Below, piece after piece: positions 11,156 through 14,993 of a stretch of DNA of 42,828 nucleotides (position 1 is the first letter of the stretch; every line of letters begins with the position of its first letter). The position numbers and the translations under genes are program-made. The stretch spans positions 1 to 42,828 of the forward strand of contig JALCRR010000015.1 in assembly GCA_022652815.1 (NCBI GenBank), given 5' to 3'. Source of the DNA: Oscillibacter sp. (GTDB taxonomy: Bacteria; Bacillota; Clostridia; Oscillospirales; Oscillospiraceae). Under the pieces are notes generated by a model. The model worked only from the letters and a program-made list of their open reading frames with translations, made no database searches and was not told the origin of the DNA.

Positions 11156-12262
11156 TTATGCCAGGGTCAAATCCCCGTCTTTGACCCATCCGACTTTTCG
11201 GCAAAGCTGATTGATTAGGAGAGTCAGAATCGCAGGGAGGACAAAGCAGATCAGAACCAGGCCGATCCATTCCATGGCGCCCGGTGTGATTGCCACTGCA
11301 CCGTTGGCAAGGGCGGCTTCACTGGGACTGACCCAGCCGGTCCACACGCCGATCTGTCCCACCAGACCGCAGGTGCCCATACCGGAAGAAATTGGCGCAC
11401 CGTTCATCTCCATGTGGAAAAGGCACGTGGCAATGGGTCCCGTGATTGCCGAAGTCAGAATCGGCGCAATCCAGACGCGGGGGTTGCGGACGATGTTGGG
11501 CATCTGAAGCATGGAGGTACCCAGTCCTTGAGATACTAGGCCGCCCCAGCGATTTTCCCGGAAACTCATAACGGCGAAGCCCACCATCTGCGCACAGCAG
11601 CCGGCCACGGCGGCACCGCCTGCAAGACCCGTCAAACTCAAAGCTGCGCAAATAGCGGCGGAGGAGATGGGAAGCGTCAGTGCGATGCCAACGACCACGG
11701 AAACGATAATTCCCATTAAGAAGGGCTGCAGCTCGGTAGCCCACATGATGACCTTGCCCAACGCACTGGCTGCGGCTCCGATCGGCGGCGCAATCAATGC
11801 GGACAGGCCGACACCCACCAAAATTGTCACAAGCGGTGTGATGAGAATATCAATTTTGGTTTCTTTGGAGACCGCTTTACCGATCTCTGCACTGATGATT
11901 GCCACAAACAGCACCGCCAGAGGACCGCCTGCGCCGCCCAAGGCGTTGGAGGCGAATCCCGCCGTAATCAGCGAGAATAGCACCAGCGGGGGACAGTGTA
12001 GCGCGTAGCCGATGGCCACCGCCATCGCCGGGCCGCTCATGGCCATGGCAAGACCGCCTACGGTATAATCCGTCTGACCGATGGTTGCTACAACTTCCGT
12101 CAGAACACCGATGTGGAACTGGGTGCCAAGGGTATTGATGATAGTGCCGATCAGCAGCGAGCAGAACAAACCCTGTGCCATAGCACCCAGGGCGTCAATC
12201 CCGTAGCGCTTAGCGGAAATCACAATGTCTTTGCGTTTGCAGAAAGCCTTTATTTTGTCCAT
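11156..12262 (-). CDS. PfoR-like PTS EIIC-family membrane protein (PTS_EIIC_2 type)
   Basis: A 368-residue, strongly hydrophobic membrane protein with roughly ten predicted helices and glycine-rich stretches (ALGGAGGPLAVLF, GLAGGAAVAGC, MGTCGLVGQIGVWTG). It fits the EIIC-like family that includes Clostridium perfringens PfoR; no EIIA or EIIB domain or partner gene is present, so sugar phosphotransfer is doubtful. I start it at 12262 (MDKIKAFCKR), which has CAGGTG a few bases upstream; the open frame extends 20 codons further (to 12322), but that part lies in a promoter/operator dyad. Its upstream neighbour on the same strand is niaR and its promoter carries a NiaR-like dyad, so uptake of a nicotinate-type NAD precursor is a reasonable inference, not a demonstrated role. 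Confidence 0.85.
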   Translation of the reverse strand: MDKIKAFCKRKDIVISAKRYGIDALGAMAQGLFCSLLIGTIINTLGTQFHIGVLTEVVATIGQTDYTVGGLAMAMSGPAMAVAIGYALHCPPLVLFSLITAGFASNALGGAGGPLAVLFVAIISAEIGKAVSKETKIDILITPLVTILVGVGLSALIAPPIGAAASALGKVIMWATELQPFLMGIIVSVVVGIALTLPISSAAICAALSLTGLAGGAAVAGCCAQMVGFAVMSFRENRWGGLVSQGLGTSMLQMPNIVRNPRVWIAPILTSAITGPIATCLFHMEMNGAPISSGMGTCGLVGQIGVWTGWVSPSEAALANGAVAITPGAMEWIGLVLICFVLPAILTLLINQLCRKVGWVKDGDLTLA

Positions 12263-12286
12263 GGAAAAAACACCTGCTTCAAAAAA

Positions 12287-12324
12287 ATGTGGTATACATG
12301 TGTCTTGACACCTGTATACCACAT
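12287..12324 (-). promoter_or_regulatory. Large inverted repeat: candidate NiaR operator
   Basis: Arms 12287-12304 and 12307-12324 are 18 bases each with one mismatch, separated by TT. The centre is GTGTC-TT-GACAC; each half also holds GTATAC. It begins at the edge of the -10 box and spans the expected transcription start of the EIIC-like gene, an ideal repressor position. A T7 run follows on the minus strand, so a hairpin role is an alternative, but the predicted start lies inside the first arm, which would shorten the RNA stem. Confidence 0.7.
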
Positions 12325-12351
12325 GATACCGAAAAGCGGAGTGCTTGTCAA
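12323..12351 (-). promoter_or_regulatory. Promoter of the EIIC-like gene
   Basis: Read on the minus strand: TTGACA (12351-12346), 17-base spacer, TATCAT (12328-12323). The -35 starts four bases after the niaR stop codon, so the transporter has its own promoter although it follows niaR. Confidence 0.8.
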
Positions 12352-12354
12352 TCC

Positions 12355-12867
12355 TTAATTCTCCAAAAGAATATGCAGCTTTCGCAGAGCATCCTGTACA
12401 CGACGAAAGGCCTCCTCATCCGGGCAGGAGAGGGTATGGAGATGAATGCCCTCTGTCAGATTGGATAGCGGCTGGGCGTCGGAAGCGGTGCAGCGCTGCA
12501 AAAACTGGCTGATCTCAAACCGGTTGGAAAGCTGCAGCGGACCGGTAATCTGACCGTAGATGGGGTGCTCCACAATGACGTCCACAACCGTGCAGCCGTT
12601 GTCCACGATGGCGTTCAGCTCGGCTTCCATGCCTGCGGCGTCATGCTGGACCGCAATCTGATGCACGAAGCCCGCAGGTTCTTTCAAAATCATATAGCCC
12701 CGGGGCGTTGCGGAGATTGCCGCACCGGAAGCCCGCAACAGGGCAATGTCACCCACGATAATCTGGCGGCTGACGGAAAACTTTTTTGCCAGAGCGGTTG
12801 CACTGACGGGCTGCCGCGCCGCTTTCAGAATGGATTCAATCTGCTTGCGCCGATCCTGTGCATTCAT
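12355..12867 (-). CDS. niaR: Niacin-responsive transcriptional repressor NiaR (YrxA family)
   Basis: Represses NAD synthesis and niacin uptake genes when niacin is plentiful. The 170-residue product has an N-terminal HTH_11 winged helix (RRKQIESILKAARQ to SRQIIVGDIALLRA) and a C-terminal 3H domain. The three histidine regions that name the domain are visible: VQHD, VEHPIYGQ and GIHLHTL, the last matching the metal-binding HxH of the family. Start is ATG 12867, with AAAGGGG at 12875-12881 on the minus strand; upstream in-frame codons are not preceded by a ribosome site. A TGTC-AT-GACA palindrome lies just downstream of its promoter, suggesting autoregulation. nadABC, the classic targets, are not in this window. 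Confidence 0.92.
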   Translation of the reverse strand: MNAQDRRKQIESILKAARQPVSATALAKKFSVSRQIIVGDIALLRASGAAISATPRGYMILKEPAGFVHQIAVQHDAAGMEAELNAIVDNGCTVVDVIVEHPIYGQITGPLQLSNRFEISQFLQRCTASDAQPLSNLTEGIHLHTLSCPDEEAFRRVQDALRKLHILLEN

Positions 12868-12881
12868 GGAATTGCCCCTTT

Positions 12882-12893
12882 CTGTCATGACAG
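12882..12893 (-). promoter_or_regulatory. Candidate NiaR autoregulatory site
   Basis: CTGTCATGACAG is a perfect 12-base palindrome about 17 bases downstream of the niaR -10 box and next to its ribosome site. It shares the TGTC-NN-GACA core with the larger dyad at 12287-12324. Confidence 0.55.
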
Positions 12894-12909: not shown

Positions 12910-12938
12910 ACTATAACACGGATTACACCGTGGGGCAA
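12910..12938 (-). promoter_or_regulatory. Promoter of niaR
   Basis: Minus strand: TTGCCC (12938-12933), 17-base spacer, TATAGT (12915-12910). The -35 lies inside the last codons of the LysR gene. Confidence 0.6.
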
Positions 12939-13843
12939 GTATCATCGTGGAGCGTTTCAGACGTTATTTCGCCGCCATCGGGAGACAAACTATCGGCTTG
13001 CGCGAAAGCATCAATCCAGTGGCTGCCGCTGGTACCCTTTAGATAGACATAGTTCATTTCCCGGGTAATGTCTGCTCCACGCAGGGTAAAGGTCTCCAAA
13101 TCGGGACTGTCCCCGGCGGCCTCATAAACAAAGGATACACCCAGTCCGGCCGCTACCATTTGCCGGGTGATTTGAATGCTACTGATGCAGCAGGTGTAGG
13201 GAAAGCTGTCGAGGGAAAAATTTTCCTCGTGCAAAATCTGCTCTAAAACCGCGCGGGACCCGGAACCGGATTCCCGCAGAATCAGCGTTTCGTCCTGCAA
13301 CTGCTGAAAGAAGACACTTTTTCTGGCAAAGGGATGTCCTTTACAGCAGATGCCAACAAAGCGTTCACGGCGAAACAGCTGATGCCCATAGGCGGACTTG
13401 TCGAAAAAACCCTCGATGAGCGCCAGATCCAGCTGGTTGTGTTCCAGCAGGTGCAAAAGATGCTCCGTGTTGTCCACCAGAACGGATAAGTTGTACCGTC
13501 CGCTGCGCAGGAGCCGAGCAATTTGCTCGGAAATCAAGAAGTCCCCGATGGTCTTGGTGGCGCCAATCCGAAAATCCCGGCGGACGGAAAGCGTGGTCAT
13601 GGCGGTCTGAACGGCGTGCTGCTCGTACAGCGCGGAGCGGCAATAGCGCTCCAAAAGCACGGCGGCATGCGTCTTGGTCAGCGTCCTGCCGTTGTAGGAA
13701 AACAGCTGACAGCCATAAGCTTTCTCCAGATAATGAATGTGCTGGGTCACGGCCGGCTGGGTGATGTGCAGATGCTCAGCGGCCTCCCGGTAGTTCATGG
13801 TTTCACAGAGCTTTAAAAAAGTCAACATTCGATAATCCAGCAT
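12923..13843 (-). CDS. LysR-family transcriptional regulator
   Basis: A 306-residue regulator with the usual layout: N-terminal winged helix (MLTFLKLCETMNYREAAEHL, then HITQPAVTQHIHYLEKAYGC, ending in NGRTLTKT) and a periplasmic-binding-protein-like effector domain from about residue 90 (RRDFRIGATKTIGDFL) containing ILRESGSGSR and a MVAAGLGVSFV segment. It is divergent from yeiH with 106 bases between; a LysR/yeiH pair is a common arrangement (compare yeiE-yeiH of enterics), so it probably controls yeiH and itself. I start it at 13843, since GGAG lies eight bases upstream; the earlier ATG at 13858 has no ribosome site. The effector is unknown. Confidence 0.92.
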   Translation of the reverse strand: MLDYRMLTFLKLCETMNYREAAEHLHITQPAVTQHIHYLEKAYGCQLFSYNGRTLTKTHAAVLLERYCRSALYEQHAVQTAMTTLSVRRDFRIGATKTIGDFLISEQIARLLRSGRYNLSVLVDNTEHLLHLLEHNQLDLALIEGFFDKSAYGHQLFRRERFVGICCKGHPFARKSVFFQQLQDETLILRESGSGSRAVLEQILHEENFSLDSFPYTCCISSIQITRQMVAAGLGVSFVYEAAGDSPDLETFTLRGADITREMNYVYLKGTSGSHWIDAFAQADSLSPDGGEITSETLHDDTCPTV

Positions 13844-13856
13844 CTTACAATACTCC

Positions 13857-13903
13857 ATAAATACAATTTATCATATAATTATAAACGATAATTGGATATT
13901 ATC
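13857..13903. promoter_or_regulatory. Inverted repeats in the LysR-yeiH divergent gap
   Basis: Three AT-rich perfect dyads: ATAAAT-ACA-ATTTAT (13857-13871), TATAATTATA (13874-13883) and GATAAT-TGGAT-ATTATC (13887-13903). The outer two contain T-N11-A-like spacing, as expected for LysR boxes. TATAAT-like -10 boxes for both directions lie among them, without good -35 boxes, which fits activator-dependent promoters. Confidence 0.5.
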
Positions 13904-13949
13904 ACTTGCGGGGTGTAAAATCAAGAAAAACAACGAGGGAGAAAACAGT

Positions 13950-14993
13950 ATGAATTTTTGGAAAAAAGCGGTGGGCATCTTACCCGGCTTTGCGGTAGCG
14001 CTTGTGATTGCAGTCGTTGCAAAATGGCTGGAAAGCGTGCTGCCGATTCACTTGATTGGTGCGTCGGTGATTGCGCTGTTCATCGGCATGATCATCAATT
14101 CCTTTTGGAAACCCGCCTGGTTAAACAGCGGACTGAAGTTTACCTCCAAGAAAATCTTGAAATTTGCCATCATTCTGCTGGGCGCATCCTTGAGCATCGA
14201 GACCGTCTTGAATGTGGGACGGCTGAGCCTGGTCGTGATGTGCTTCACGCTGCTGACGTGCTTTGGCGGCGGTTATTTTGTGGGCAAGCTACTGGGCATC
14301 AACTGGAAGCTGTCCAACTTGATTTCTGCCGGAACCGGTATCTGCGGCGGCAGTGCCATCGCCGCCATTGCGCCGGTTATTGACGCGGAGGACAGCGACA
14401 TCGCCTACGCCATGTCCGCCACCTTTCTCTTTGACATGGCGATGATCGTACTGTTTCCCATTTTGGGTCGGGCAATGGGCCTTTCCGACATGGCCTACGG
14501 CCTGTGGGCAGGTACGGCGGTGAATGACACCTCCAGCGTGGTGGCGGCAGGCTTTGCCTTCAGCGAAGCCGCCGGCGACTTTGCCACCATGGTCAAGCTG
14601 ACCCGCACGCTGTCCATTATCCCGGTGGTGGTGATTTTCTCCCTAATCAATGCCCGTATGAAACGCAAAGAGGCTGTGGCAGCGGGGCATTCCGAAGCTG
14701 AAATTGCAAAGCACGGAAAGATCAATTTCGGCATGCTGATCCCGTGGTTCATTGTGGGCTTTATCGCACTGGCGGTCATCAACAGCGTGGGCTTAATTTC
14801 TGTTGCGGTTTCTACCGGGGCCAAGGATCTGAGCAAGTTCTTGATGGTGGCGGCACTGGCAGCCATTGGCTTGAATACCAGCTTTGCACAGATGAAAAAA
14901 TCCGGCCCGGCTCCCATGCTGCACGGATTCATCATTTCCGCACTGGTGGTGGTCGTGGCTATCGCGGTGGAGTATTGCATGGGAATCGTCTAA
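13950..14993 (+). CDS. yeiH: YeiH-family (UPF0324) putative anion/sulfate exporter
   Basis: Integral membrane protein of 347 residues with about ten helices. Family features: LIGASVIALFIGMIINSFW near the N-terminus, KFAIILLGASLSIETV, SAGTGICGGSAIAAIAPVI (the most conserved block), GTAVNDTSSVVAAGF and the closing LNTSFAQMKKSGPAPMLHG. The family is annotated as putative sulfate exporter; the substrate is not proven. Start has a GAGGGAG ribosome site. A divergent LysR gene probably regulates it. Followed by a bidirectional terminator facing ygfK. Confidence 0.9.
   Translation: MNFWKKAVGILPGFAVALVIAVVAKWLESVLPIHLIGASVIALFIGMIINSFWKPAWLNSGLKFTSKKILKFAIILLGASLSIETVLNVGRLSLVVMCFTLLTCFGGGYFVGKLLGINWKLSNLISAGTGICGGSAIAAIAPVIDAEDSDIAYAMSATFLFDMAMIVLFPILGRAMGLSDMAYGLWAGTAVNDTSSVVAAGFAFSEAAGDFATMVKLTRTLSIIPVVVIFSLINARMKRKEAVAAGHSEAEIAKHGKINFGMLIPWFIVGFIALAVINSVGLISVAVSTGAKDLSKFLMVAALAAIGLNTSFAQMKKSGPAPMLHGFIISALVVVVAIAVEYCMGIV

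Follow-up and report, generated by a model that had tools for sequence, protein, structure and literature searches.

A putative NiaR operator at the start of a PfoR-like (PF13303) membrane protein gene of Oscillibacter suggests a regulated nicotinate importer

A NiaR box within a long dyad at the promoter of a PF13303 gene

Contig JALCRR010000015.1 of Oscillibacter sp. (assembly GCA_022652815.1; 42,828 nucleotides, the whole of which is hereafter the window) carries, directly behind niaR, a gene for a membrane protein of family PF13303 (PTS_EIIC_2, PfoR-like). The predicted transcription start of this gene is covered by a long dyad that has a box of the NiaR type at its center. Taken together with conservation among relatives, this arrangement makes it probable that the dyad is a NiaR operator and that the PF13303 protein is a regulated nicotinate importer in bacteria that appear to depend on salvage. 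NiaR loaded with nicotinate would block the promoter of the PF13303 gene as well as its own, and low nicotinate would open both.

The promoter of the PF13303 gene, TTGACA-N17-TATCAT (12323–12351, minus strand; hexamers 12351–12346 and 12328–12323), agrees with the consensus at 11 of 12 bases and begins 3 nucleotides behind the niaR stop codon. Its spacing predicts a start site near 12315–12317. The dyad (12287–12324, minus strand) has the sequence ATGTGGTATACAGGTGTC-AA-GACACATGTATACCACAT and the core TGTC-TT-GACA. Its 18-nucleotide arms, separated by a 2-nucleotide spacer, are complementary at 17 of 18 positions (94%). On the coding strand the 5' arm occupies 12307–12324, its outer end sharing two bases with the 3' end of the -10 hexamer, and the 3' arm occupies 12287–12304. 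A run of seven T follows directly on the same strand (12281–12287), the first T being the last base of the arm. The box TGTCTTGACA (12301–12310) and a second one, TGTCATGACA (12883–12892; pattern TGTC-NN-GACA), are TGT-N4-ACA palindromes located at promoter matches. The second precedes niaR, at a promoter-like site (TTGCCC-N17-TATAGT, 12910–12938, minus strand) that has 9 of 12 consensus bases and a TG before the second hexamer, and may serve autoregulation. An earlier, sequence-only reading of this stretch had named niaR and the PfoR-like gene and had described the consensus promoter, a dyad with 18-base arms and a single mismatch over the start, and a second TGTC-NN-GACA core at the niaR promoter; each of these held.

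NiaR of the window (170 amino acids; 12355–12867, minus strand) has both the N-terminal HTH_11 domain and the C-terminal 3H domain, and matches the solved structures 9ebr, 1j5y, and 7cv0. Aligned to 7cv0, on which the numbering was counted, it keeps the residues corresponding to H83, E91, H150, and H152 of B. halodurans NiaR, which are metal ligands and the niacin-binding histidine according to PMC7713382. The same source gives the type I motif as TGT-N4-ACA, which the box fits, and a bound B. halodurans oligonucleotide that contains ATGTCTTGACAT. The pneumococcal operator is TACWRGTGTMTWKACASYTRWAW, as given in PMC5343564.

The weight of the dyad comes from its long arms, position, and conservation, and not from its core. 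When up to three mismatches are allowed, the full dyad pattern has a single copy in the window, and none of 100 dinucleotide shuffles contains it. The core TGTC-NN-GACA occurs close to chance frequency, with two copies in the window against an expectation of 0.54 (at least as many in 12 of 100 shuffles) and 15 in the whole genome as compared to 14 for the reversed pattern, and we therefore rejected the 10-bp core alone as evidence from a single genome. Open reading frames around six of the 13 further core places in the genome (L001–L003 and L005–L007) were read for other NiaR targets, and no target-like gene was seen; the four that were scanned matched HD, RsfS, YitT, and AICARFT. By eye, leuS lies behind the core at L006:2193, and an HD-domain gene of the same orientation, located 2 kb upstream, was read as the end of nadD-yqeK.

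Conservation of the box among relatives

A sample of 245 genomes of the order contained PF13303 in 120 and the 3H domain in 60. We examined the best PF13303 gene of each of the 119 other genomes for an exact box within 170 nucleotides upstream. The proteins fall into a near group (58–78% identity to the window protein) and a far group (38–52%). In the near group, the box was present in 21 of 24 genomes with NiaR and in 0 of 20 without it (Fisher's test 1e-9, ignoring kinship); one of the latter, G002, has an upstream region of only 73 nucleotides. The three NiaR-bearing near genomes without an exact box have TGACAAGACA (G035), a partial site (G114), or no site (G236). The near-group tree requires six changes of NiaR and five of the box; only two independent pairs lie on supported branches (six on all branches). 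In both supported pairs the box never changed opposite to NiaR, with too few pairs for significance. The conservation leads us to reject a chance origin of the dyad.

The association was also examined within the genus (61 genomes, including that of the window; 3H in 47 and PF13303 in 55). Genomes with both niaR and PF13303 have the exact box in 44 of 45 cases; the site of the remaining one, G286, differs from it by one base. The two genes are also linked: in 27 of these 45 genomes niaR precedes the PF13303 gene on the same strand by no more than 200 nucleotides, and in three more fetched stretches it lies at 1.0–1.6 kb. The box was also found before three of five near-group genes of the genus in genomes without NiaR; these assemblies are 56–82% complete, and for two of the three the upstream sequence spans only 72 and 127 nucleotides. 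The sequence-only reading had named a lack of co-occurrence of the gene pair or the dyad in relatives as a refutation of its proposal; the contrary was found.

The box does not extend to the family as a whole. It was absent from all five far-group genes of the genus, and in the far group of the order it was found in none of the 13 genomes that have NiaR and in 2 of the 62 that lack it (2 of 75 together), both of these boxes overlapping by eye a -35-like TTGACA. In the wider phylum it preceded none of 30 PF13303 genes (the 30 best-scoring of 66 genomes). NiaR control of PF13303 at large was therefore rejected.

A scan with the near-group alignment gave 587 confirmed stretches, the best 80 of which were examined as named loci; this set overlaps the genome samples, some contigs appearing the same. 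It includes Oscillibacter, Dysosmobacter, Blautia, Butyrivibrio, ‘Fusobacterium naviforme’ ATCC 25832, and a Faecalitalea. An exact box lies within 250 nucleotides in 24 of the 80, and one locus (L249) has no upstream sequence. Of the 14 loci that contain a niaR relative, 13 also have the box, L206 being the one without it. The box is absent in 55, many of them from Lachnospiraceae, in genomes whose NiaR content was not assessed.

Niacin salvage and the neighbors of the PF13303 gene

Judged by the two enzymes that were searched for, NadA and PncB, the genus appears unable to make nicotinamide adenine dinucleotide (NAD) de novo and to live on salvage by PncB. NadA was found in none of the 61 genomes, whereas 12 of 14 control genomes yielded it. 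Because the Pfam model NAPRTase (PF04095) misses the PncB type present here, a PncB protein was used as the query, which found PncB in 54 of 61 genomes, including that of the window and all 32 good assemblies. With pncB and no detectable nadA, the genus should depend on imported niacin.

The gene pncB (NF006695) also adjoins the PF13303 gene in six of the 80 named loci. In three (L223, L245, and L265), pncB, niaR, and the PF13303 gene stand in a row; in L218 the pncB match ends 13 nucleotides before the PF13303 gene, upstream on the same strand; and in L240 and L258 the two genes are divergent. In G098, pncB lies beside niaR. No Pfam family occurred more than twice among 64 other neighboring open reading frames picked from the 80 loci, one of which (in L219) is probably niaR. 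Two far-group loci have similar surroundings: the PF13303 gene of L159 (G141) is beside a divergent pncB, and that of L012 (G170) has niaR upstream and the near-box TGACAAGACA. The niacin link of PF13303 may thus reach beyond the near group.

These neighbors bear on which compound is carried. The PF13303 protein could be regulated by NiaR and import quinolinate, nicotinamide, or nicotinamide riboside instead of nicotinate, given that NiaR regulons can contain pnuC (PMC5343564) and that no specific transporter is known in quinolinate-salvage genomes according to PMC6593275. The recurrence of pncB next to the gene, as in L218, speaks for nicotinate, which is the substrate of PncB, and we consider import of another precursor unlikely.

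The NiaR regulon differs in genomes where PF13303 is absent. In G162 (L281:7–3468), a member of the family in which there is no PF13303 match, four genes stand in the order nadB-like (FAD_binding_2), nadC, niaR, and nadA. A NiaR box precedes the gene for a 189-amino acid predicted membrane protein in L279:1869–2435 (G161) and L293:916–1482 (G222, which likewise gave no PF13303 match). This protein has no Pfam or NCBIfam match and may perhaps be NiaX.

Predicted fold of the PF13303 protein

The PF13303 gene (11156–12262, minus strand; ATG at 12262) has a ribosome-binding-like site, AGGTG, at 12275–12271 and encodes a protein of 368 amino acids that passes the curated Pfam cut-off (313 bits vs. 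28.9; E = 2.9e-93). No solved structure is related to it by sequence at E ≤ 1. Its predicted structure resembles the EIIC carriers of the glucose type, with moderate matches, that from Foldseek being weaker than that from VIA-align. Only PF13303 was matched, with no major facilitator superfamily (NiaP) or energy-coupling factor S-component (NiaX) match, in profile libraries that may hold no NiaX model.

Neither EIIA nor EIIB was found in the protein itself or in its five scanned window neighbors (niaR, LysR, YeiH-like, Dabb, and aminotransferase), the rest of the genome not having been searched. Directly upstream of niaR (12923–14993), the gene for the LysR regulator is divergent from that for the YeiH-like (PF03601) membrane protein. 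The sequence-only reading had taken the product for a PfoR/EIIC-like protein without other parts of the phosphotransferase system (PTS) and for a possible NAD-precursor transporter. The first point is borne out for the protein and these five neighbors; the second gains support from the pncB neighbors, from PncB without detectable NadA, and from the EIIC-like predicted structure. The protein would be a stand-alone EIIC-type carrier acting as a uniporter or symporter. Since no EIIA or EIIB is seen beside the gene, the force behind uptake would probably be an ion gradient or metabolic trapping, in which PncB turns nicotinate into nicotinate mononucleotide.

A role as a membrane sensor or regulator rather than a carrier would suit the old name PfoR, given to PF13303 proteins as putative regulators. 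Only EIIC family matches were obtained, however, with no signaling domain; the predicted structure is EIIC-like; and a salvage-dependent genus needs an importer. We regard the sensor role as distinctly improbable.

The dyad as a hairpin

As RNA, the dyad is predicted to form a strong hairpin (z -5). Among the 27 loci of the genus in which niaR is linked, there are 14 different arm pairs, whose outer sequences vary but stay complementary. We tested arm symmetry at outer pairs 10–16 against 2000 shuffles, with no correction for relatedness. Watson-Crick pairs numbered 88 of 98 in these niaR-linked loci (shuffled mean 55.9; 0 of 2000 as high), 64 of 98 in 19 unlinked loci of the genus (37.8; 0 of 2000), and 50 of 112 in 21 other loci (36.4; 9 of 2000). 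The number of T in the eight nucleotides behind the dyad follows the same order (5.3, 3.3, and 2.5, respectively). As a possible sign of an RNA stem, G-U and A-C mismatches at pairs 5–18 were compared; they number 15 and 3 in linked loci, 16 and 14 in unlinked congeners, and 33 and 17 in other genera. Because the T-rich tail itself makes G-T pairs, these counts do not speak clearly for a stem.

The arms vary yet remain complementary, most of all at loci with niaR immediately upstream, and at these loci the operator may also act as a terminator, with the extended palindrome and T-rich tail ending the niaR transcript. Two observations temper this. Arm symmetry is present, albeit weaker, without niaR linkage, and a pattern scan of the window listed no terminator at the dyad despite its stem and T tract; because of the latter, termination is put forward as a proposal. 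Part of the left arm also lies before the expected transcription start, and the symmetry would then be explained by read-through RNA coming from an upstream gene or by an event at the DNA level, for example template switching from one arm to the other. The combined reading of a stand-alone EIIC-type nicotinate importer without a PTS partner, trapping by PncB, and an operator that is also the niaR terminator hairpin is weakened by the poorer Foldseek match and by symmetry not being confined to niaR-linked loci, and we put it at somewhat less than an even chance.

The hairpin could conceivably be all there is, the dyad being only a terminator or mRNA hairpin with an incidental NiaR-like core. 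The complementary changes in the outer arms, the T-rich tail, and the strong predicted RNA fold agree with this, as do hairpins of quite different sequence found at the dyad's place, just downstream of the -10 hexamer, in two genomes without NiaR (G071, locus L072; G111, locus L084), that of G071 being GC-rich with a T-rich tail. Against this reading, the box is also kept in family members whose fetched stretch holds no niaR; in G229 and G191 it is placed in the spacer of the promoter and not at the start; and none of the 20 near-group genomes of the order that lack NiaR has it. The flanks of the box (ACAGG/CCTGT) are likewise kept in most of the genus. A hairpin without NiaR control is thus highly improbable, and we favor a NiaR operator over the start of the proposed importer gene.

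Relation to known niacin carriers and PTS proteins

PF13303 may already have been predicted as NiaY, in which case the nicotinate importer proposed here would stand but not be new. The label ‘nicotinate-regulated transporter BH3254’ speaks for this; BH3254 was not found in the literature searched. NiaY was proposed in 2008 on the basis of NiaR regulons, and PMC5343564 describes it as a membrane family under NiaR control in five genomes of Bacilli and Clostridia. The box precedes none of the 30 PF13303 genes of the phylum, and NiaR does not appear together with PfoR or PTS_EIIC in the literature searched. That search, incomplete and without the key 2008 NiaR paper, found no link of PF13303 or PfoR to NiaR or niacin. 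We consider identity with NiaY possible, with the balance tilting against it. The description of the transporter as unrecognized, made in the sequence-only reading, is thus an inference that depends on PF13303 not being NiaY.

In PMC6593275, the three known niacin carrier families were found with confidence in only 25% of gut genomes auxotrophic for vitamin B3. The regulator- and pncB-linked EIIC-type carrier of Oscillospiraceae and relatives is a candidate for part of this gap. If so, a protein of the sugar-PTS type would be used for a vitamin.

The PF13303 protein differs from the PTS EIIC carriers of the glucose superfamily (PtsG, MalT, and ChbC; ~12% identity) in that no EIIA or EIIB domain or adjacent gene is seen in the window and in being proposed to carry a vitamin rather than a sugar. 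PfoR of Clostridium was named as a toxin regulator, whereas nothing at the window locus points to toxin control. With the NiaR (YrxA) regulons that contain niaX, niaP, or niaY, the locus shares the regulator family, the type I operator, a membrane protein that the regulator seems to control, and the context of salvage, but here the controlled protein, for which no other Pfam family was matched, belongs to PF13303.
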